A stretch of DNA of 64,000 nt, taken from Nitrospira sp. (GTDB taxonomy: Bacteria > Nitrospirota > Nitrospiria > Nitrospirales > Nitrospiraceae). A program made the translations under genes and the position numbers. Every line of letters begins with the position of its first letter. Positions within the stretch are counted from its first letter, which is position 1. The stretch is taken from assembly GCA_030123625.1 (NCBI GenBank), contig CP126121.1, forward strand, positions 2,086,179 to 2,150,178, given 5' to 3'. This document shows positions 16,672-31,272 of this stretch, piece by piece. The notes under the pieces are model-generated. The model was not told where the DNA came from. It made no database searches and worked only from the letters and a program-made list of their open reading frames with translations.

Positions 16672-18939
16672 TCAACGCCGGTGATAGGGAACGCAGAAGC
16701 TATTGGAGCAGTGCGCCACTTTCAAATCCCCGTCCGTCACATCGTAGTAACTGATGAGGCCGCGACCGTCCGTCCCTATGGTAATCGTCGTGAACTGACC
16801 GACGTCCCCCTGGCTTTGAACGACAGTATGGGTCGCCTTGTGACAGTCAACATCAGCGCAATGAGCGACTCGTAAATCTCCGTTCGTCGCATCGTAATAG
16901 CTAATCAGACCACGACCGTCCGTGCCGACGGTGATAGAAGTAAATTGGCCAATGTCGTCCTTGTTGTGAAGCGTGTTCACGTTGGCAGAGCGACATGGAA
17001 GGTCGGTGCAGTAAGCCACTTTCAGATCGCCGTTTGTCGCATCGTAGTAGCTGACCAGCGCGAATCCGTCCGACCCGATCGTCACAGAACTATGCTGCCC
17101 TACATTGCCCCTGCTGTCCAATGTGCTTTCCGTCGCAGATCCACAGACCACATCCACGCAATGCGCGACTTTCAGGTCTTCGTTCGTGACGTCATAATAG
17201 CTGATGAGTGCCAGCCCATCGGTACCTATGGCAATCGAGGTGAACTGACCGACGTCTCCCTTGCTGACCAAGGTGGTAATGCTGGCCGAACTACAAATGA
17301 CATCGTCGCAATGGGCCGCTTTCAGATCGCCGTTCGTGGCATCGTAATAGCTGATGAGGCCTCGCCCGTCCGTCCCGATCGTTATCGACGTAAACTGACC
17401 GACCTGATCCGCCTGGTCCAACGTAACGGCCGTCGCAATGGTGCAAGCGACGTCAGCACAGTGCGCGACTCGCAGATCGCCGTTCGTGGCATCATAGTAG
17501 CCGATGAGGGGAAGCCCATCCGAGCCGATCGTTACGGAACTGTACTGGCCAACATTGTCCTGGCTCTGAACGGTCGTCAGCGTGGCAGAGGCGCAGACGA
17601 GGTCGGCGCAGTGAACCACCCTGAGGTCGCCGTTCGTCGCATCGTAGTAACTGATCAACGCCTTGCCGTCGGCTCCCAGCGCCATCGAGGAGGATGCACC
17701 CACGTTAATAGCCGCTCCGTCCAGCGTAGTAATAGTCGCGTCGGTGCAGCCCACGTCGCCGCAATGGGCAACCTTCAGATCCCCATTGGTAACATCGTAA
17801 TAGCTGATGAAGGGCAGATCATCTCTCCCGATCGCAACGGACGTGTATGGGCCGACGTTGCCGGTACGGTCCGGCGTGGCCAGTGTGGCGGAGGTACAGG
17901 CGACATCGCCACAATGGGCGACCTTTAAATCCCCGTTCGTGGCATCGTAGTAGGTGATGAGACCCAAGCCATCGCTACCGATGACGATGGACGTGTATTG
18001 GCCGACATTGCCTTCGCTCTCAAGGACGGTGCGCGTCGGAGAGACGCACACGACCTCCTCGCAGTGGACGACTTTGAGATCGCCGTTGGTGGCATCGTAA
18101 TAGCTGATGAGGGGGCGACTATCCATCCCAATTGTCACCGAGCTGTACTGGCCCACATCAGCGGTTTTATCGGGAGTCGTAGTGAGAGTAGGCTCCGTAC
18201 AAGGCAAATCCGGACAGAGCGCCGATTTCAGGTAGTGATCGGTCGCGTCGTAATAGCTGATGAGACCCTGCCCTCCGGCAATGGTGACGGCGGTGTATTG
18301 ACCGACGTTCTCTTCCGCCTGTAAGAAGGTGAGGACAGTGACTGTCGCGGCCTCACAGGCCACATCGGTGCAGTGCGCAATCTTCAGGTCCCCGTTCGTG
18401 ACATCATAGTAGGTAATGAGGGGAAGCTTGTCGATGCCGATAGTCAGGGAACTGTACTGACCGACGTTTCCACCATGGTCGAGGGTCTTGAGCGTGGCCG
18501 ACGTGCATGCGATATTCACACAGTGAGCGATTTTCAGATCTCCGTTCGTCGAATCGTAGTAACTAATGAGGCCTAGATCGTCGCTCCCAAGCGCGATAGA
18601 GGTGTACCGGCCGACATCCCCAATGCGGTCCAGAGAGCTGATCGTCGCGGAGGTGCACATCCGGTTCGAACAGTGCGCCACTTTCAGATCCCGGTTTGTC
18701 GCATCATAGTAGCTGATAAGGCCGAGGCCGTCAGCCCCGATGGCGATGGAAGTGTATTGACCGGCATCGCCCGAACCATCCCGGGTGATAATCGAGAATC
18801 CTGGACGTTCCAGAGCCGGGCCGTCAGCTTCGGCACCAAGGTTCACCAGCAAGGTTGCACAAAGCGCCGTTCCTACAACGAGAGCGATTCTGCACAATAA
18901 AATCTTACTGGTTCTCAAGACCCTCATCGTGCGCCTCAT
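16672..18939 (-). CDS. Secreted protein of 14 tandem ~50-residue repeats
   Basis: 755 residues. After an N-terminal signal peptide (hydrophobic stretch to about residue 40, ending GAEADG) the protein is 14 repeats of about 49-50 residues. The consensus has VGQYTSIxIGxDGLxLISYY, then DATNGDLKVAHC and a second Cys 5-6 residues later. Each repeat carries this pair of cysteines, probably a disulfide. The repeat resembles a beta-propeller/beta-solenoid blade; no catalytic motif is seen. High repeat identity at the DNA level suggests expansion and recombination. It ends with a short HRR tail. Function unknown; an envelope adhesin or structural role is only a guess. Confidence 0.85.
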   Translation of the reverse strand: MRRTMRVLRTSKILLCRIALVVGTALCATLLVNLGAEADGPALERPGFSIITRDGSGDAGQYTSIAIGADGLGLISYYDATNRDLKVAHCSNRMCTSATISSLDRIGDVGRYTSIALGSDDLGLISYYDSTNGDLKIAHCVNIACTSATLKTLDHGGNVGQYSSLTIGIDKLPLITYYDVTNGDLKIAHCTDVACEAATVTVLTFLQAEENVGQYTAVTIAGGQGLISYYDATDHYLKSALCPDLPCTEPTLTTTPDKTADVGQYSSVTIGMDSRPLISYYDATNGDLKVVHCEEVVCVSPTRTVLESEGNVGQYTSIVIGSDGLGLITYYDATNGDLKVAHCGDVACTSATLATPDRTGNVGPYTSVAIGRDDLPFISYYDVTNGDLKVAHCGDVGCTDATITTLDGAAINVGASSSMALGADGKALISYYDATNGDLRVVHCADLVCASATLTTVQSQDNVGQYSSVTIGSDGLPLIGYYDATNGDLRVAHCADVACTIATAVTLDQADQVGQFTSITIGTDGRGLISYYDATNGDLKAAHCDDVICSSASITTLVSKGDVGQFTSIAIGTDGLALISYYDVTNEDLKVAHCVDVVCGSATESTLDSRGNVGQHSSVTIGSDGFALVSYYDATNGDLKVAYCTDLPCRSANVNTLHNKDDIGQFTSITVGTDGRGLISYYDATNGDLRVAHCADVDCHKATHTVVQSQGDVGQFTTITIGTDGRGLISYYDVTDGDLKVAHCSNSFCVPYHRR

Positions 18940-19170
18940 CACAATGGCTCTAAGTCAAGAGAGACGCGGGAATACTCAGTGAATTCTCGCCGTATGACTT
19001 TTACAGTCTATATCTCGACAAAGATGAGAGTCCACTGGTGGAGTTGGGTCCGTGAACCACCACGTCAACCTACGGGATGGAACTCTGCGAGAGGAATGTA
19101 TTCCACGATAAGACTGATGGTCGGGTAGGGTGCAGTCACTGGAACAGGAACATCAAACCTGGTGCAGGTT

Positions 19171-21744: not shown

Positions 21745-22900
21745 TGCAGGAGCGCGATTTGTGAAGTCGCCGGTATATTATTATTCAGGGGGCCGTCGGC
21801 ACACTGTTAATCGATTGTTTCAGGCGTGCTGGCTAGCAGAGGATTACCAGCCATCCATAATGTCGCCGAAGAAGCCCGGATTGGCGATTTCCACTTAGAG
21901 CTCTCTCTTCGACATAGTAATTCACTCCTGCGCCCCGCCCATGATGGTAGAGGTGCTTTTAAATTCGTACATCTCATCAGGACCGAATCGGCATGGCATG
22001 CAATACCGAAGCTATTGGTCTCTGGAGGCAAGCAGGGAGCTACCTAGATCAGTCTGCATGGCCGGCAATCCGCAGTGCTCGCGGTGGAATACCCCTCAAG
22101 GGTTCCTAAACGAATACCTATTAACAAGGACTCTCTAAACAAAGAAACCCACCGCTGCAAACGATCTTTCACAAAAAATGATTATGCCGGTCATTCTACT
22201 TGTAGGGCTAAAGGATAGCCAGTTATGTAGAGAAGTACGAGACGAGTTCCTCCGTCCCTCCATGTTTCCACTCAGAGGTCCTAGTTCCGTCACCATACAA
22301 GACAGACCCTCCATCCCTACACTTCACTGTGTACTCTGGTAGACATACTCTTGGCGCCATGAGCAACTAATTGGTGTAACTTATGATAAACCGAGGAATT
22401 TTTCAGTGAGACCCATTGTCCAAATATCTCCTGACGTGCTGCTCTCATGGCATTCAACTTGCTGTAACAGAGCTCCATATTGAATGGCATCCGACGCCGA
22501 GTGTCCGGTGGTCGGTAAACGAACCTGTCGAACCACGGACGCCGCCACCGAACAATCCTGTTGAGATATGGATGACGACGGAAACTCCGTATGAGGACCA
22601 GATGAGGACCAGTGTGCTCCATTGCAAGAAGAAAAGCATACGGCTGCTATATGCTCAAGCAATTGCGGATCTGCAACACCGTCTATCTGGAGGTTATTCA
22701 CAAGTGAGGGAGGCGTATTTGCTGTATCACCTCATCGCTATCCCCTGTGCGCTCATCCTTGATTGTGCGGTGTGGCTCGGCAACCGCATCATGCCGAGGA
22801 TCAAATAATCTGCGATCTCCGCAACATGATCTTTGCGTGGGCTCGGGCAGTACCTTTCTCGCCATGGGCGATATTGTGTTCGCCGTGGCTGGGACCGCAT
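21745..22900. other. Gene-poor stretch left of integrative element
   Basis: About 1.15 kb with only short frames on both strands, none with recognisable family signatures, consistent initiation or good codon use. It lies between the ATP-grasp gene and a decayed integrase, so it is probably eroded remains of an older integrated element. I could not identify any parent genes. Confidence 0.5.
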
Positions 22901-23020
22901 CTTCCATGACCTGTGGCACTGTGCGGTAACAAACCTGGCCGACGAGGCGTTGAAATTGAAACCTTCATGAAGATCGTCGGGTATTCCTCTGTAGACATCC
23001 GCAACACGTGCTTCCCCACG
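22901..23020 (+). pseudogene. Decayed 3' end of a tyrosine integrase
   Basis: Nucleotides 22901-22994 match the intact integrase at about 30949-31042 (the HDLRH...VGHSS region). There is a one-base deletion, an Arg-to-Trp change in HDLRH and a stop. A deletion of roughly 80-100 bp then joins it to a stretch (22998-23020) matching 31124-31146. It lies directly before the left 18-bp att copy, as the intact integrase lies before tRNA-Leu, so it is the remnant of an earlier related element at the same site. Confidence 0.8.
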
Positions 23021-23057
23021 GATCTGTCACTTCTGGATAATGAGATAGGAAAAGAGT

Positions 23058-23075
23058 TGGTGCCGAAGCCGGGAT
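23058..23075 (+). other. attL, copy of tRNA-Leu 3' end
   Basis: The 18-bp sequence TGGTGCCGAAGCCGGGAT is identical to 31186-31203, the CCA end and acceptor/T-arm edge of tRNA-Leu on the minus strand. The flanks diverge on both sides. It marks the left junction of the integrated element. Confidence 0.8.
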
Positions 23076-23615
23076 AGTAAAGGTGGGAATCGTTGAAGCC
23101 TTTGATGGAAGCGGCGATTCCTGCCTATCCCCTTGATACACTAGGACCATGTTCTTGTTTCTCTTTGTCTGTCTCTGGTACGGTTCGGCTCGATCTGTCG
23201 CTAAAAGTAACACCCTAATAACACCTGGCAGAAGACCTCCCCGGCATGTTCCGGCAGCTAAGGGTGGCCTTTGGAGTCCTCTAGCGCTAGTCATTTATCC
23301 TTCGCGGTTCACCTGGACTACCCCCAGCCTTCCAAAACGAATCGCACGCCAAAAAGGAACCCACCAAAAAGGAAACCACCAACTGGCTTCACCGCCTACT
23401 ACTAAAACAATGGCGATGGAGAGGTAACCTGTCTAGGCGGCCTAGGGCTGCAGCGGTATGCTAAGTGGGCGTTCGCGAAGAACTCCTTTCGGGATGACAC
23501 TGCAGAATTTTGAACTGGCAAGTCGCTACTTATAACGATTTTCTATGCATCCGTAATAATGAAGGTGTATGCTTGGCCCAGTTTAATACCCTCAAATCCA
23601 TAAAAGGTTTATCAG
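23076..23615 (+). other. Non-coding lead upstream of the deaminase, candidate inhibitory RNA
   Basis: 540 bp without a convincing gene between attL and the deaminase start. Known DcdV/AvcD systems are preceded by a short inhibitory RNA (DifV/AvcI) immediately upstream. The last ~200 bp (about 23420-23615) is the natural place for such an RNA. I see no decisive structure; this is position-based inference only. Confidence 0.35.
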
Positions 23616-25130
23616 TTGATCAAGGATGCCGAGCTTTTCATAGGGTTAGTTGGTGCGGTTGGTTCTGAATTGGATCAAGTCGTGTCTGCACTTGAACATG
23701 CCCTACAGTTAGTAAGCTACAAGTGCAGAACGATCAACGTTATAGAGCAGCTTCGAGAATTTAGAGAATATGCCCCTGACCTCTCAGATGCAAAATCGCT
23801 GTATGACCGATACATGTGTCGAATGGATGCCGGTGATTGTTTTCGCCGATCCACTGAATTGGGCGATGCATTGGCAAGACTCTCAATTAGTTCAATAAGA
23901 AGGACGCAGCGAGCACCACATAGTAAACAAAATGATCCAGCAGAACCTATACCAAGAACTGCATATATTCTACGATCCCTCAAACATCCAGACGAAGTTG
24001 ATTTTTTGCGGAAGGTTTACGGACCAAACTTTTACCTGATTGCAGCCTATACACCAAGGGATCTCAGGGTTGCACGCCTCCGAACTCGTATTGCTTCATC
24101 AAGTCATGATAGCCAAACTGATCAATATAGGGTCGATGCTGAAAAGCTTGTTTCTCGCGATATGGATGATAGGGACAATAGGTACGGTCAAAAGGTAGGG
24201 TCAACATTCCCCAAAGCTGACTGTTTTATCAATGCTCAGGCAGGCGCTGACATTGATGGAGAAACTAAGCGTTTCGTCGAGCTTCTGTTCGGGAATACAT
24301 TTCGGACTCCTACTTACCACGAATTTGGGATGTTTCATGCTCAGGCCGCTGCTTTGCGCTCATCAGCCCTCGGTCGGCAAGTTGGTGCCGCTATCATGAC
24401 TCCGAACCGAGATGTCATCGCGATTGGAACTAATGAAGTTCCGAAATATGGTGGCGGACAATACTGGGAAGGAGACAACAATGACACCCGAGACTTCCAT
24501 CTTGGGGAAGACAGCAGCGACACAAAGAAACGAGAAGCACTTGCTGAATTGTTTCATAGGTTAAAAGAAAACAAATGGTTCACATCAGAAAAATCAGATG
24601 GATACTCCGTTGAAAAGATGGTCGAGCATGCACTCCCAGTACTAAAAGGTACCCGATTGGTTAATCTTACAGAGTTCGGCAGAGTAGTTCATGCTGAAAT
24701 GGCTGCACTTCTTGATGCTTCTAGAAGGGGTGCTTCTGTACAAAACTCGACAATGTACACTACGACTTTCCCATGCCATAACTGCGCTCGACACATTGTA
24801 GCGGCTGGAATTAGAGAAGTTATCTACATCGAACCATATCCGAAAACACTGGCCGCAGATTTTCATCCTGACTCTATAGCCGTTGATACCCCTGGACCAA
24901 CTACAGCTCAGGTTCACTTCCGTCCGTTCGTAGGGGTTGCTCCAAGGCTGTATATGCAACTATTCGAAATGTGCCTTAGGAAAGATGCCCACGGCAAAGT
25001 ACTCAAGTGGAAGAACATAGATGCAAATCCCAGACTTGCATTGTCTGCTAATTTCTATATAACTACTGAGGTAGCGGAAGTGAGCAACCTTTATGAAAAG
25101 ACGGGTCGTTTAGGTCTGACTCCATGCTAA
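23616..25130 (+). CDS. dcdV: DcdV/AvcD-type dCTP/dCMP deaminase, anti-phage defence
   Basis: 504 residues with two domains. The N-terminal nucleotide-kinase-like domain starts with a P-loop-like GLVGAVGS (residues 10-17) that has Ser where Walker A lysine is expected. The C-terminal zinc deaminase domain has HAE (359-361) and PCHNC (C387 and C390). This order and length match the defence deaminases that convert dC nucleotides to dU nucleotides upon phage infection and deplete dCTP. The start is TTG: an in-frame TAA lies five codons upstream, the next ATG is deep in the domain, and AAAGG sits 8 nt before it. A housekeeping dCMP deaminase is unlikely given its length and mobile context. Confidence 0.85.
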   Translation: MIKDAELFIGLVGAVGSELDQVVSALEHALQLVSYKCRTINVIEQLREFREYAPDLSDAKSLYDRYMCRMDAGDCFRRSTELGDALARLSISSIRRTQRAPHSKQNDPAEPIPRTAYILRSLKHPDEVDFLRKVYGPNFYLIAAYTPRDLRVARLRTRIASSSHDSQTDQYRVDAEKLVSRDMDDRDNRYGQKVGSTFPKADCFINAQAGADIDGETKRFVELLFGNTFRTPTYHEFGMFHAQAAALRSSALGRQVGAAIMTPNRDVIAIGTNEVPKYGGGQYWEGDNNDTRDFHLGEDSSDTKKREALAELFHRLKENKWFTSEKSDGYSVEKMVEHALPVLKGTRLVNLTEFGRVVHAEMAALLDASRRGASVQNSTMYTTTFPCHNCARHIVAAGIREVIYIEPYPKTLAADFHPDSIAVDTPGPTTAQVHFRPFVGVAPRLYMQLFEMCLRKDAHGKVLKWKNIDANPRLALSANFYITTEVAEVSNLYEKTGRLGLTPC

Positions 25131-25179
25131 ATAATCAGCATCGTTATTATATAGTTCACTGCCATAATGGAGGCCTATC

Positions 25180-25335
25180 ATGGAAGCTGGCTGGCTAAGG
25201 CAAGAAATAGAGAATGTCCAGCGTGAGGTCAGAGACTGGCCGGAATGGAAAAAGGGAACAGCAAGCGATGACCGATTGGAAGTGAAAGAGACATCCTTGA
25301 GAGAAAGTGATGACCAGCATCAACAACGGACTTAA
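25180..25335 (+). CDS. Small acidic protein, 51 aa, after the deaminase
   Basis: A short gene starting ATG at 25180 with GGAGG 6 nt upstream. It encodes a charged, helical protein starting MEAGWLRQEIENVQREVRDW and ending in a Glu/Gln/Asp-rich tail. It is 49 bp after the deaminase in the same direction and is likely cotranscribed. No known family is recognised; similar WLxxEIE..REV..WPxW small proteins exist in many genomes. The role could be defence accessory or unrelated. Confidence 0.6.
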   Translation: MEAGWLRQEIENVQREVRDWPEWKKGTASDDRLEVKETSLRESDDQHQQRT

Positions 25336-25407: not shown

Positions 25408-25713
25408 TCACTTGAATCGTCCTTTTTCGCACCAATACTTGACTTCAACTATACCAAAAGTGCCTCCCCGATAATGTGGCTGGTTTGCGGTGAATAGTTC
25501 TTGCGCAATTTCACAGTTCGCCCGATTGTATTTTGTGTCTTCATTGATACTGTTTAGTGGACGGGCATTGAAGGTTGCGACGTGAATCCTCAAAGTTTCA
25601 TCATGGTGCGCTGGGATGTCCATCCCACTACGATAAAGAGTGTATTCCACGCCATCTGATAATGCGCACGAGCTAAAGGCTCCAACAAAAATGACTACGA
25701 TAAACCACATCAT
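25408..25713 (-). CDS. Small lipoprotein, uncharacterised
   Basis: 101 residues. The N-terminus MMWFIVVIFVGAFSSCALSD has a lipobox-like FSSC, so it is likely a lipoprotein of about 85 mature residues, with one more Cys pair near the C-terminus. GGGGA lies 7 nt upstream of the ATG at 25713. No family is recognised. It is cargo of the integrative element. Confidence 0.6.
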   Translation of the reverse strand: MMWFIVVIFVGAFSSCALSDGVEYTLYRSGMDIPAHHDETLRIHVATFNARPLNSINEDTKYNRANCEIAQELFTANQPHYRGGTFGIVEVKYWCEKGRFK

Positions 25714-25805
25714 GATATTTTCCCCATGTCTAATGCTCCAGAGAGACGGCGGCATGGTATGCAAGTTTCTCAATGTCTAAGGATCCAGTCTCCTTAACCA
25801 CTGGT

Positions 25806-26180
25806 CTAATCAATTCTCCTACAAGCTCCCTGATAGTCAGAATCTAACCAAAACACAGCATGATTACTGAGGAAAGAAAATGTCCCCTTCAAGCGATTCT
25901 CAAAAGAGAATAGCTGAATCTGGTCTCCAATCCGTTTAAATACAAATAACCCGCCGTGACTAGCTCTACTTGGGACTTCTATATCGAATAGCCCGTCGTT
26001 ATCAGCCCAAAGGACCCACCATCTATTTTCCGTTAGTTTGAAATAGACTATTTCCTTTATTTCCTTTCCTTCAAACTGTCCATCACATTGATACGACGTT
26101 TTCTTTGTAGAGAAAAAGAAGAGAAACACAAACACCCCCGTGATGAAAACGGACAATCGCCAAGACCACGTCCGGGTCAT
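25806..26180 (-). CDS. Single-pass membrane protein, uncharacterised
   Basis: 124 residues with an N-terminal transmembrane segment rich in Phe and Val (about residues 8-25) and a beta-rich outer part. It lies just upstream of the lipoprotein gene in the same direction, so the two may form an operon. AT-rich like the neighbouring cargo. No function assigned. Confidence 0.6.
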   Translation of the reverse strand: MTRTWSWRLSVFITGVFVFLFFFSTKKTSYQCDGQFEGKEIKEIVYFKLTENRWWVLWADNDGLFDIEVPSRASHGGLFVFKRIGDQIQLFSFENRLKGTFSFLSNHAVFWLDSDYQGACRRID

Positions 26181-26323: not shown

Positions 26324-26492
26324 ATAGTCTTAGCCAGCGGAGAGGCCGACAGCCTCGCAGATCCTATGGACTTCCACTGGCGAGCACGGTAAGCCGACAG
26401 CTAGGCCGAGCGAGACGTGATCCAGGGTATTAACTGGTCACCTCCTCGGTCTTCTTTTTGTCCGACAGGTGGCCGTAACTAGGAGCCATGCT

Positions 26493-26711
26493 ATGCCGGA
26501 CAAAGCTCTCGTTCCTTCCGCAATTCTTCGCCTGAAAGATGTTCAAAGACAACTCGCTCTTAGTCGGAGCGCTATCTATTCGCGCCTAGCGGATAACGAT
26601 TTCCCTGAGCCGCTCCAATTAGGCCCCCGTGCGATCGGCTGGCTTCAAGCCGATATTGACGTCTGGATCGAAGGCCGAAGGCGACAGGGTCACACGGGGG
26701 GGCAGCCATGA
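26493..26711 (+). CDS. AlpA-like DNA-binding protein
   Basis: A 72-residue MerR/AlpA-type helix-turn-helix protein, with LRLKDVQRQLALSRSAIYSRL as the recognition fold and FPEPLQLGPRAIGW, DIDVWIE typical of AlpA regulators that control excision genes in satellites. The ATG at 26493 has AGGAG 7 nt upstream; a GTG at 26469 is less likely. Its stop overlaps the next ATG as ATGA. Confidence 0.8.
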   Translation: MPDKALVPSAILRLKDVQRQLALSRSAIYSRLADNDFPEPLQLGPRAIGWLQADIDVWIEGRRRQGHTGGQP

Positions 26712-28792
26712 GCCTCACACTATCAAGATTGCGTGCGCAAGATTATGCAGCGCTTGAAAGTGAATCATGGATTGATGCCGCCACAGCAGAGGCCTTCAAG
26801 CTCTCTCGTGTTTCGAGGATGGAAGGAGCGGAGCTGGTTGGACGAACTGACCGTGGAGACTACGCGGGCATCAGGTTCCCCATCTACTGGCCCGGTGATC
26901 CAACCCCTCGCGAACACCATCTCCGACGTGAGCATCCGCCGGTGGAGGACGGTAAGCAAAAACAGAAATACCTCGCGCCGCCTGGCCGAGGGAATATGTT
27001 GCTGTTTGGGCCAAATGAATCGGTGGAGGCCCTGACCGATCCCGCGTGCCCGATCATCCTTGTTGAAGGGCTCAAGAAGCTGTTAGCGGCCTATCGCCTA
27101 TCCCGTTGGGAGACGACCGAGCCCCGGTTTCTGCCCTGTGCGATCTCCGGCGTCTGGAATTGGCGTGGGAGGATTGGCAAGACATCGGATGCTACTGGCG
27201 CACGGGTCGATGAAAAAGGCCCAATTCCTGATCTAGCTCGGATCAGCTGGCCGGGGCGTGATGTTGTCGTCATTTTCGATAGCGACTGCGCCACCAACGA
27301 CAAGATTGCCGCTGCTCGGCGCGGGCTGGTGGCTGAACTACGGAAGCGTGGAGCCCGTGTGGGCGTGGTCGATCTTCCGGCGCTGGATGGACTGGACAAG
27401 ACTGGCTTCGATGATCTTGTCGCACAGCGCGGTCCAGAGGAGGCGCTAGTGCTAATTCAGAAGACGATTGCGGAACAGGTAGAGGCCAGGGCTGATATTA
27501 CCCCCTCTGCGGAGGCTGCACAGCTGCACACCCCTCCGGCACTGGCGCAAGAACCTAACATTCTAGCGAAGTTCGAGAAAGCCATCGGCGAGCGCGGCAT
27601 GGTGGGCGAAGAACGGTGTGCAAAGGTACTCTATCTCGCCTTCACCAGCCGCCTCCTCGATCAACCCGTTTCTGTGGCAATAAAAGGATTGTCAAGTAGT
27701 GGGAAATCCTTCACGACCGAAACGACGCTGAAGTTTTTTCCGGCGACAGCCTATATCTCCATGACGGCCATGAGCGAGCGGGCATTAATCTACATGAAGG
27801 ATGATTTTCAGCATCGGACGCTGGTGATTTTCGAGGCGGTGGCGCTACGAGAGGAGCGCGAGAAGAACGAGAGCAACCTGACTGCCTACTTTGTGCGATC
27901 GTTGCTCAGTGAAGGGCGCATCGCCTATCCCGTCACCGTGCGGGATAAGCAAGAAGGTTTCGTCACAAAGACCATCGTCAAGGAAGGACCGACCAATGTC
28001 ATCTTGACCACAACCTCCACGGAGCTACACGGCGAGAACGAAACGCGGTTGCTCTCCTTGCCGACGAATGACTCTCCGGAACAAACCAAGGCAGTCATGC
28101 GGCGTTTGGCGGAGGGTATGTCCCATGAGGTGAACGTTCAGGAATGGCACGCCTTACAGAATTGGCTTGCCGTAGCAGAGCATCGCGTCATTATTCCCTT
28201 CAGTACCTATCTTGCCGATGCTATTCCACCCATGGCAGTTCGCCTCCGACGTGATTTCAAGACACTCCTGCGGTTGATCGAGACGCATGCCCTACTACAG
28301 CAATGCTCTCGTGACCGTGATGCCGAGGGGCGTATTATCGCGACACCAGAGGACTACTTTACCGTGCGAGGACTTGTGGCAGATCTCTTCGCTGCAGGTG
28401 TTGGGGCGACCGTGCCACATACTATTCGCGAGACGGTGCAAGCGGTCCAGCGTATTGATAGCGGAGAGGGGGCGACTGTCCTCCAAATTGCGAAAGAATT
28501 GAAACTCGACCGATCAGCCGCACAGCGCCGCACCCAGGCAGCCCGAGAACGCGGCTATCTCGCAAACCTGGAAGAAAAGCGGGGACGGCCAGCACGCTAC
28601 GCGATCGGCGAGCCGCTTCCCCAGGAATTAGAACTCCTCCCGTCCACTCTACCAGGGTGTGCACGCAGTTTCGCATCGACGCATAGCTTCATGCACAGCG
28701 TAAGCTCTTCAGTAACCAAAGATTTTATGGAGGGTGTGCAGGTGTGCAGTGAATTCGGGGAGGAGATGGAGGTGATCACCGATGTTGCTTGA
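26708..28792 (+). CDS. Element replication protein, TOPRIM-like (DUF3854-type) and P-loop ATPase
   Basis: 694 residues. The N-terminal region (about residues 110-265) has ILVEGLKKLLAAYRL and VVVIFDSDCATN, matching TOPRIM/DUF3854-type primase-like folds. A P-loop GLSSSGKS lies at about residues 326-333, followed by a Walker-B-like VIFEAVALREE and an LTTTSTELHGENETRLLSL segment. The C-terminal part has a winged-helix-like region (LQIAKELKLDRSAAQRR). This suggests a primase/helicase acting in replication of the element. It is translationally coupled to the AlpA-like gene. Confidence 0.7.
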   Translation: MSLTLSRLRAQDYAALESESWIDAATAEAFKLSRVSRMEGAELVGRTDRGDYAGIRFPIYWPGDPTPREHHLRREHPPVEDGKQKQKYLAPPGRGNMLLFGPNESVEALTDPACPIILVEGLKKLLAAYRLSRWETTEPRFLPCAISGVWNWRGRIGKTSDATGARVDEKGPIPDLARISWPGRDVVVIFDSDCATNDKIAAARRGLVAELRKRGARVGVVDLPALDGLDKTGFDDLVAQRGPEEALVLIQKTIAEQVEARADITPSAEAAQLHTPPALAQEPNILAKFEKAIGERGMVGEERCAKVLYLAFTSRLLDQPVSVAIKGLSSSGKSFTTETTLKFFPATAYISMTAMSERALIYMKDDFQHRTLVIFEAVALREEREKNESNLTAYFVRSLLSEGRIAYPVTVRDKQEGFVTKTIVKEGPTNVILTTTSTELHGENETRLLSLPTNDSPEQTKAVMRRLAEGMSHEVNVQEWHALQNWLAVAEHRVIIPFSTYLADAIPPMAVRLRRDFKTLLRLIETHALLQQCSRDRDAEGRIIATPEDYFTVRGLVADLFAAGVGATVPHTIRETVQAVQRIDSGEGATVLQIAKELKLDRSAAQRRTQAARERGYLANLEEKRGRPARYAIGEPLPQELELLPSTLPGCARSFASTHSFMHSVSSSVTKDFMEGVQVCSEFGEEMEVITDVA

Positions 28793-29778: not shown

Positions 29779-30021
29779 ATGGTGCCCATGCAGACGCGGC
29801 TTAGAGAATGGCGAGAGAAGCGGGGCTTGAGCCTTCGGAAGCTCGGAGCCTTGTCTGGTGTCCATTATGTCTCTCTGGTCAAGATGGAAGCCGGAAGGCT
29901 GGACCCGCAACTCTCAACCTTGCTGAAGCTGTGTCAGTCGCTCAGTATCACTCTTAGTCAACTCGTGGGAGAACCACGAGGAAAAGGAGGGCGTTCACAT
30001 GGGACTGACGCGAAGGGGTAA
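29779..30021 (+). CDS. XRE-family transcriptional regulator
   Basis: 80 residues forming a lambda-repressor-type helix-turn-helix: LREWREKRGLSLRKLGALSG, then SLVKMEAGRLDPQLSTLLKL. Its 3' end overlaps the integrase start by 23 nt. Likely represses the element's own genes; the palindromes at 26290-26323 are candidate operators. Starts at 29779 or 29788 are both possible. Confidence 0.85.
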   Translation: MVPMQTRLREWREKRGLSLRKLGALSGVHYVSLVKMEAGRLDPQLSTLLKLCQSLSITLSQLVGEPRGKGGRSHGTDAKG

Positions 30022-31171
30022 GTGTGCTCGGGGATGCCCGGACGGGATGAAGGGCCTGAAATGCCCTTGCCCGAAGTCCTGGGCCTATTATGTCGAGTTT
30101 TATGTGTTGGATGATGGCGAACGGCTGACGTTAACCAAACGCATGCCAGGGGCGAAGCTCAAACGCTGGAAGGTCGGTTGTGACAATAAGACGCTTGCCC
30201 GGCAACAGGAAGCCGTCATCAAGACCAAACTCTTAGCCGGAGCTATCGAGAGTGAGCGGGGCAAGCAAACGGTCATGACCTTATGGCAGTGGGCCGAGGA
30301 ATACAAGGCGACTGAGGAAGTCCGAAGGCTTCGCTCCTACAAAGAACGCTGTCAGAGAATAGACAAGGTTATTGTGCCTTTCTTCGGGACCAATCGCTTG
30401 CTTCAGGATTTGGCGGTAAAAGACGTAGAAGCCTTCCGGCAGGAACGAGGCAAGGGGCGTATGGTCGGAACCGTGAACGTCGATCATAATTACCTCAAAC
30501 ACATGCTGAAATTGGCGATGAAACGGGATCTGATTACGCGAAATGTCGCCTCTCTCGTGGCGGCTCCCAAACCGAAGAATGCAAGGAATCGAGTCCTTGA
30601 CCCCGAAGAATGGCAACGGCTCTATGGTGCCGCGCCTGACTGGTTCAAGCCCGTACTGTTAACCGGCTATCACACCGGCATGCGGTTAGAAGAGATTCTC
30701 ACTCTGACTTGGGATCGGGTGGACTTGGAGAAAGGCCGGATCTTCCTTCCTGGTCATTTGACGAAGACGGGGCAGGAGCGCCTTGTTCCGATCACGGCTA
30801 CCTTACGGCGAGAACTCCAACGTCATCGGAGCCTTGACGGGGTTACGCGCATTCAAGGCTTGGTGTTTCACAAGGACGGGCGAAAACTGAGCCATACCTA
30901 CCGGGAAGTTCAGCGGCTCTGCCAGGAACAGCAGATTGAAAATTTCGTCTTCCATGACCTTCGGCACTGTGCTGTGACGAACCTGGCCGATGAAGGTGTT
31001 GAAATCGAAACCATCATGAAGATCGTCGGTCATTCCTCGGTGGAAATGTTTCTTCGCTATCGCACAGTGAAGGCGGATCGGTTGGACGCTGCAATGGCCC
31101 GACTGGACGCCAGACTTAACACCCCCGCAACACGTGCTTCCGCACGGTTTTCTAACTCATTGAATAATTAG
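29999..31171 (+). CDS. int: Tyrosine integrase
   Basis: 390 residues. The N-terminus is Cys-rich (CARGCPDGMKGLKCPCP), then comes the SAM-like core-binding domain and the catalytic domain with TGMRLEEIL (first Arg), HDLRHCA (His and second Arg), VGHSSVEMFLRY (His and Tyr). The start ATG has AAGGAGG 8 nt upstream. The stop lies 15 bp from the 3' end of tRNA-Leu, the normal position for an element integrated there. Intact, in contrast to the decayed copy at 22901-23020. Confidence 0.95.
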   Translation: MGLTRRGKCARGCPDGMKGLKCPCPKSWAYYVEFYVLDDGERLTLTKRMPGAKLKRWKVGCDNKTLARQQEAVIKTKLLAGAIESERGKQTVMTLWQWAEEYKATEEVRRLRSYKERCQRIDKVIVPFFGTNRLLQDLAVKDVEAFRQERGKGRMVGTVNVDHNYLKHMLKLAMKRDLITRNVASLVAAPKPKNARNRVLDPEEWQRLYGAAPDWFKPVLLTGYHTGMRLEEILTLTWDRVDLEKGRIFLPGHLTKTGQERLVPITATLRRELQRHRSLDGVTRIQGLVFHKDGRKLSHTYREVQRLCQEQQIENFVFHDLRHCAVTNLADEGVEIETIMKIVGHSSVEMFLRYRTVKADRLDAAMARLDARLNTPATRASARFSNSLNN

Positions 31172-31185
31172 GCAGGAAAGGGTAG

Positions 31186-31203
31186 TGGTGCCGAAGCCGG
31201 GAT
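31186..31203 (+). other. attR inside the tRNA-Leu 3' end
   Basis: Same 18-bp sequence as 23058-23075. Integration keeps the tRNA complete because the copy rebuilds the CCA end. Confidence 0.8.
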
Positions 31204-31272
31204 TTGAACCCGGACACCCGTGAGGGCGCTAGACCCTGAATCTAGTGCGTCTGCCAGTTCCGCCACTTCGGC
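31186..31272 (-). tRNA. tRNA-Leu (anticodon CAG)
   Basis: 87 nt on the minus strand. The acceptor stem GCCGAAG/CTTCGGC, a long variable arm as in class II tRNAs, the TTCAAAT T-loop and an encoded CCA end are all present. The anticodon loop TTCAGGG gives CAG for Leu. It is the attachment site of the integrative element. Confidence 0.95.

Follow-up and report, generated by a model that had tools for sequence, protein, structure and literature searches.

A conserved 51-residue protein gene follows an anti-phage dCTP deaminase on an integrated element of Nitrospira and may encode its inhibitor

Results and discussion

Integrated element

The window analysed here is a 64,000-nucleotide stretch of Nitrospira sp. 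DNA (contig CP126121.1). It holds an integrated element of approximately 8.1 kb, located between two identical 18-bp repeats, which carries a deaminase gene as cargo. The left repeat (attL, TGGTGCCGAAGCCGGGAT) is found at 23058-23075, directly followed by the DNA leading to the deaminase gene. Its perfect copy (attR, 31186-31203) forms the 3' end of a minus-strand tRNA-Leu(CAG) gene (31186-31272), the integration site. The chance expectation for such a perfect 18-bp match is 0.04. On the plus strand, the element encodes an AlpA-type regulator (26469-26711; PF05930, 1.2e-17), a DUF3854 protein of 694 aa (26708-28792; PF12965, 7.2e-13) and a tyrosine integrase (29999-31171; PF00589, 2e-25). Judging from the make-up of the element, the DUF3854 protein is probably replication-related. 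The original prediction placed the deaminase on a mobile element, which is confirmed by the repeats, the tRNA gene, the integrase and the AlpA-type regulator.

The deaminase gene and the small gene behind it, with a GC content of 46% and 48%, respectively, are poorer in GC than the remainder of the element (55%). Together, the two genes are probably AT-rich cargo of a satellite-like element and lie at its att-side end. In E. coli, relatives occupy a similar position in P4-like satellites integrated at tRNA-Sec, namely between psu and int.

Deaminase

The deaminase gene (23616-25130, plus strand) encodes a protein of 504 aa and starts with TTG. An in-frame TAA at 23601-23603 leaves this TTG as the sole usual start codon before the core of the fold, and an AAAAGG motif (23602-23607) lies 8 bases 5' of it, so the TTG start proposed earlier is retained. 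The protein matches the NCBIfam model for anti-phage dCTP deaminases (NF041025) over its full length with 446.4 bits, above the cut-off of 400, and the dCTPase model of PADLOC with an E-value of 5.9e-155. The predicted structure (AlphaFold, 36 aligned rows, mean pLDDT 91.2) combines a P-loop kinase-like N-domain with a dCMP deaminase-like cytidine deaminase C-domain. Foldseek relates the deaminase domain to human dCMP deaminase (4.6e-9) and the kinase-like domain to an adenylate-kinase-related protein (2.9e-6). Since no part of the fold is missing from the model, beginning with its first strand, the short N-terminus is not a truncation of the fold.

The catalytic motifs HAE (residues 359-361) and PCHNC (residues 386-390, PCxxC in the family) are intact, and both are invariant. 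The P-loop-like motif GLVGAVGS lacks the Walker lysine, as do the other members inspected. The two-domain DcdV/AvcD-type architecture read from the sequence at the outset is thereby borne out, and the enzyme is an ordinary member of this known family. When active, enzymes of the family convert dCTP/dCMP to dUTP/dUMP and starve phage DNA synthesis of its precursor; this activity is established for the family, and the Nitrospira enzyme would be expected to share it.

Alternatively, the protein might be a metabolic dCMP/dCTP deaminase with no part in defence, and the small gene a passenger. The related short deaminases (dCMP deaminase, ComEB) are indeed metabolic. However, it is the defence-specific model that is matched full-length above its cut-off, while the ComEB model reaches only 55 of the required 219 bits. 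The distribution among relatives is sporadic, plasmids, phage-like contigs and P4-like satellites are where relatives reside, and the partner described below is subject to selection and linked to the enzyme. A metabolic role is thus highly improbable.

Lead upstream of the deaminase

According to PMC10511110, the enzyme of the Vibrio AvcID system deaminates both dCTP and dCMP, and is held off by an adjacent labile RNA, AvcI. When a phage stops transcription, AvcI decays and the enzyme is released. A comparable RNA had been suggested for the 540-bp lead between attL and the TTG (23076-23615, plus strand). The description of this lead as gene-free stands: attL ends at 23075, and the lead contains no recognised gene, only short ORFs without support.

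The suggested RNA fared less well. At the gathering threshold, no Rfam family is found anywhere in the window, and relaxing the limit to E-values up to 1 gives a single meaningless match within the lead. Folding of the lead is unremarkable, with z-scores between -1.2 and +2.2 for five 150-base folds compared to shuffled sequences. A model built from nine upstream regions of the AvcID clade has no match in the window; this is a test of sequence only, because RNAalifold finds no consensus base pair in the underlying alignment. An alignment with the leads of the three nearest relatives reveals no conserved block, although at about 50% protein identity unconstrained DNA is expected to show little conservation anyway. 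Nor was a promoter-like site found in the 540 bp. These comparisons give no support for a structured or AvcI/DifV-type inhibitory RNA in the lead. An RNA unrelated to these would be conceivable, with nothing in its favour.

A type III system, in which an RNA from the lead would inhibit the deaminase and the small protein would have another role, is therefore improbable. Speaking for it are the length of the gene-free lead, which also holds a 2.3-copy tandem repeat of 15 bp (23349-23382) and a hairpin (23081-23126), and the precedent of the upstream RNA of AvcID (PMC10511110). Against it stand the negative Rfam, folding, upstream-model and alignment results, as well as the position of this deaminase outside the AvcID clade. 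Moreover, much of the lead adjoins attL and may be mere element-end DNA.

A conserved small gene behind the deaminase

The small gene (25180-25335, plus strand) encodes a protein of 51 aa. It lies on the same strand as the deaminase gene, 49 bp behind it, and starts with an ATG preceded at six bases by GGAGG (25169-25173). The protein is predicted to have an N-terminal helix ending in WPxWK, followed by a charged tail that is probably disordered.

The first relative of this protein was found in a search of Nitrospirota, directly behind another deaminase. Deaminase loci were then gathered from relatives, GTDB genomes, plasmids, phage records and IMG/VR, and the downstream region of each was read. 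Viral contigs gave nothing when scanned with a single protein as query, and 59 loci with an alignment query. About 20 distinct deaminase loci carry a gene of 45-75 aa at the same downstream place, most with a helix-like stretch that ends in a WPxW motif plus a basic residue; a few divergent members were assigned by position and helix pattern. They come from Nitrospirota, gamma- and alphaproteobacteria and P4-like satellites of E. coli. In five relatives (L041, L042, L045, L094 and L095), the ATG of the partner overlaps the deaminase stop codon by 4 bp, suggesting that both proteins are made together. Co-transcription of the small gene with the gene for the toxic enzyme, as in type II toxin-antitoxin systems, is predicted from the shared strand, the 49-bp gap and these overlaps.

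A profile HMM of eleven seeds was used to search the deaminase loci, which yield 12,055 stop-to-stop ORFs. Further members were retrieved at the same position in loci outside the seed set, with chance matches mixed in only from an E-value of about 0.5. In a leave-one-out analysis, the partner was always the top ORF of its locus (E-values of 1e-9 to 0.01), with the next best ORF at 9 or above. The window's own protein, scored with a model built without it, ranks first in its locus with an E-value of 2e-7, followed by an ORF at 9. Codon comparison gave a dN/dS of 0.145 for the partner pair of L039 and L040 (Fisher p 0.010) and 0.10 for that of L085 and L092 (Fisher p 0.0013), indicating purifying selection on the WPxW partner.

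The family is nearly exclusive to deaminase loci. Among 395 Nitrospirota genomes, the HMM has matches in four, all beside a deaminase. Among 369 gammaproteobacterial genomes, it has one strong match, also beside a deaminase, and two weak ones (E-values of 0.003 and 0.009) that are chance-like. Across the 764 genomes sampled, the family is thus confidently seen beside a deaminase only, with counts that are lower bounds since divergent members (e.g. those of G456 and G756) fall below the reach of the search. Based on these data, the 51-aa ORF is a real gene, tied to this deaminase family as far as sampled. The original prediction had pointed out a small, well-initiated gene at this place that known systems do not require; the gene is indeed present, and the described systems have none there, the AvcID element lying upstream of its enzyme and the WPxW gene downstream.

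Pfam, NCBIfam and PADLOC contain no family for the WPxW partners and gave only unrelated single matches. Eight members match an unnamed PHROGs family, the window's own protein not being among them. A description of the partner was not found in the searchable literature, in a search that did not cover the two primary Nature Microbiology papers on DcdV/AvcID.

Deaminase tree and other partner types

A tree of 79 deaminases was constructed, in which the deep nodes are weak. Partner type tracks this tree, with 14 changes compared to 37 when labels are shuffled. The window's deaminase groups with those of L039, L040 and L002, all of them WPxW loci. It falls outside the AvcID clade (18 rows, SH-aLRT 99), which unites loci with a small upstream ORF, including the Vibrio and E. 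coli types and the ETEC plasmid p58. A single clade (97) comprises the loci with DUF488-like partners, and a third type of small protein, characterised by QLELDF, clusters beside the AvcID clade. For 37 of the 79 rows no partner was assigned, in part owing to contig ends or partner divergence, so a partner is not obligatory for every member of the family. Due to the weak deep nodes, the WPxW partner may either be ancestral or have been gained several times. When compared by hhalign, the WPxW proteins have no relationship to the small proteins of the other clades (E-value of about 0.5).

Some further observations were made on these other partners. In the AvcID clade, the upstream (AvcI) region contains an ORF of 56-65 aa in seven loci (L051, L055, L056, L057, L064, L106 and L137) and a longer one in L065 and L108. 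Its C-terminus is conserved and ends in tryptophan (AxKLxW-like), and its dN/dS is 0.29 between L055 and L065. Published as the source of a non-coding antitoxin RNA, this region may also encode a protein. The QLELDF-like motif stands at the start of a downstream protein of 63-82 aa in L116, L119, L121, L122, L125, L132 and L133, and in L109 a start of this kind is combined with the AxKLxW end seen in the ORF of the AvcID clade. A hint from hhalign links these two types with an E-value of 0.0013, at a probability of only 18%. Finally, a downstream protein of 172-184 aa (L004, L005, L058, L061, L115, L118 and L120) is DUF488-like by eye and has a QxxLF-like motif near its start; its gene often overlaps the deaminase gene. 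In Rhizobium (L059), the DUF488-like partner belongs to a protein whose annotation includes a TIR domain.

Proposed mechanism

The locus is best explained as a two-gene anti-phage module whose small protein holds the deaminase in check, a reading to which we assign a probability of roughly 60%. In this model, which relies on analogy with AvcID, the 51-aa WPxW protein would bind the deaminase and silence it in healthy cells. Given its small size and probable lability, it would disappear once a phage stops host gene expression. Its loss would release the deaminase, which would then convert dCTP/dCMP to dUTP/dUMP and thereby starve phage DNA synthesis. The protein would thus take the role that AvcI RNA has in the Vibrio AvcID system. 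Given that precedent (PMC10511110), an inhibitor is the most economical role to transfer to the WPxW protein; the binding, inhibition, lability and trigger are what we infer by this analogy. A single case fits an inhibitor role: in one genome (G114, L014/L018), the deaminase is broken into two reading frames, but the WPxW gene that follows is whole.

In the main rival reading, the partner would act as a positive cofactor or as a sensor of phage: it would bind a phage product or stabilise an active oligomer, and the deaminase would be inactive without it. Conservation, coupling and exclusivity would look the same in that case. In addition, accessory subunits are commonly encoded downstream, and larger DUF488-like accessory genes occupy the same place in other clades. 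In the AvcID branch, however, it is an inhibitor that is encoded next to the enzyme, which is active alone once released (PMC10511110). A cofactor or sensor is rather unlikely, yet the strongest competitor of the inhibitor. The pair was also modelled as an AlphaFold read-through of a homologous locus (L093), where the spacing is naturally in frame. The partner, covered by two alignment rows only, is disordered in this model (pLDDT 33-50) and no interface is seen, a result that counts neither for nor against a complex.

Comparison with known systems

The AvcID/DcdV systems of Vibrio and E. coli (PMC10511110) resemble the Nitrospira pair in enzyme family, two-domain architecture, an adjacent small regulatory element and their presence as mobile-element cargo. 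In contrast, no AvcI-like RNA or upstream ORF was found here, the deaminase branches elsewhere, and the downstream WPxW gene is unrelated to the upstream ORF of the AvcID clade. What is new is the partner, by which the system departs from the described branch: a conserved protein gene is present where AvcID has an RNA.

The same gene order is found in an integrated P4-like satellite of E. coli O157:H7 FRIK944 (L148), in which the deaminase gene lies 1 bp from a gene for a 57-aa hypothetical protein (WP_000021256.1). Element and host differ from those in Nitrospira, and the deaminase is about 35% identical to that of the window; L098 is a 95% relative. No published test of the L148 pair was found. 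The proposed logic, in which a small labile protein would restrain a toxic enzyme, is that of type II toxin-antitoxin systems, except that here the partner gene comes second instead of first and no DNA-binding domain is seen in the partner.

Only one branch of the family has a known means of keeping its nucleotide-depleting defence enzyme off in healthy cells, and there an RNA is responsible. The dedicated, widespread protein that accompanies another large branch, E. coli included, is a concrete candidate for such an off-switch. If this holds, the same enzyme family would be controlled by RNA in some lineages and by protein in others. It is conceivable, though slightly less probable than the opposite, that anti-phage dCTP deaminases are commonly under the control of clade-specific small proteins. 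The WPxW protein would then be the antitoxin of this branch and RNA-run AvcID one special case, and even there a conserved small protein with a KxxW end may be encoded in the upstream region. The partner can also be used as a marker for such operons, as a gene of about 50 codons is easily missed or left unnamed.

Other features of the window

Left of attL, positions 22808-23057 retain the degraded 3' end of another integrase, which shares about 85% identity with that of the element. It is probably the remnant of an earlier element of this type at the same tRNA. Between the two-gene module and the AlpA-type regulator (25408-26180), two minus-strand ORFs of 121 and 124 aa each have a hydrophobic stretch near the N-terminus; neither has a match in Pfam. 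Outside the element, five imperfect 39-bp repeats with a spacing of about 150 bp are present at 18073-18720, within a minus-strand ORF (16672-18942) that probably encodes a repeat protein.
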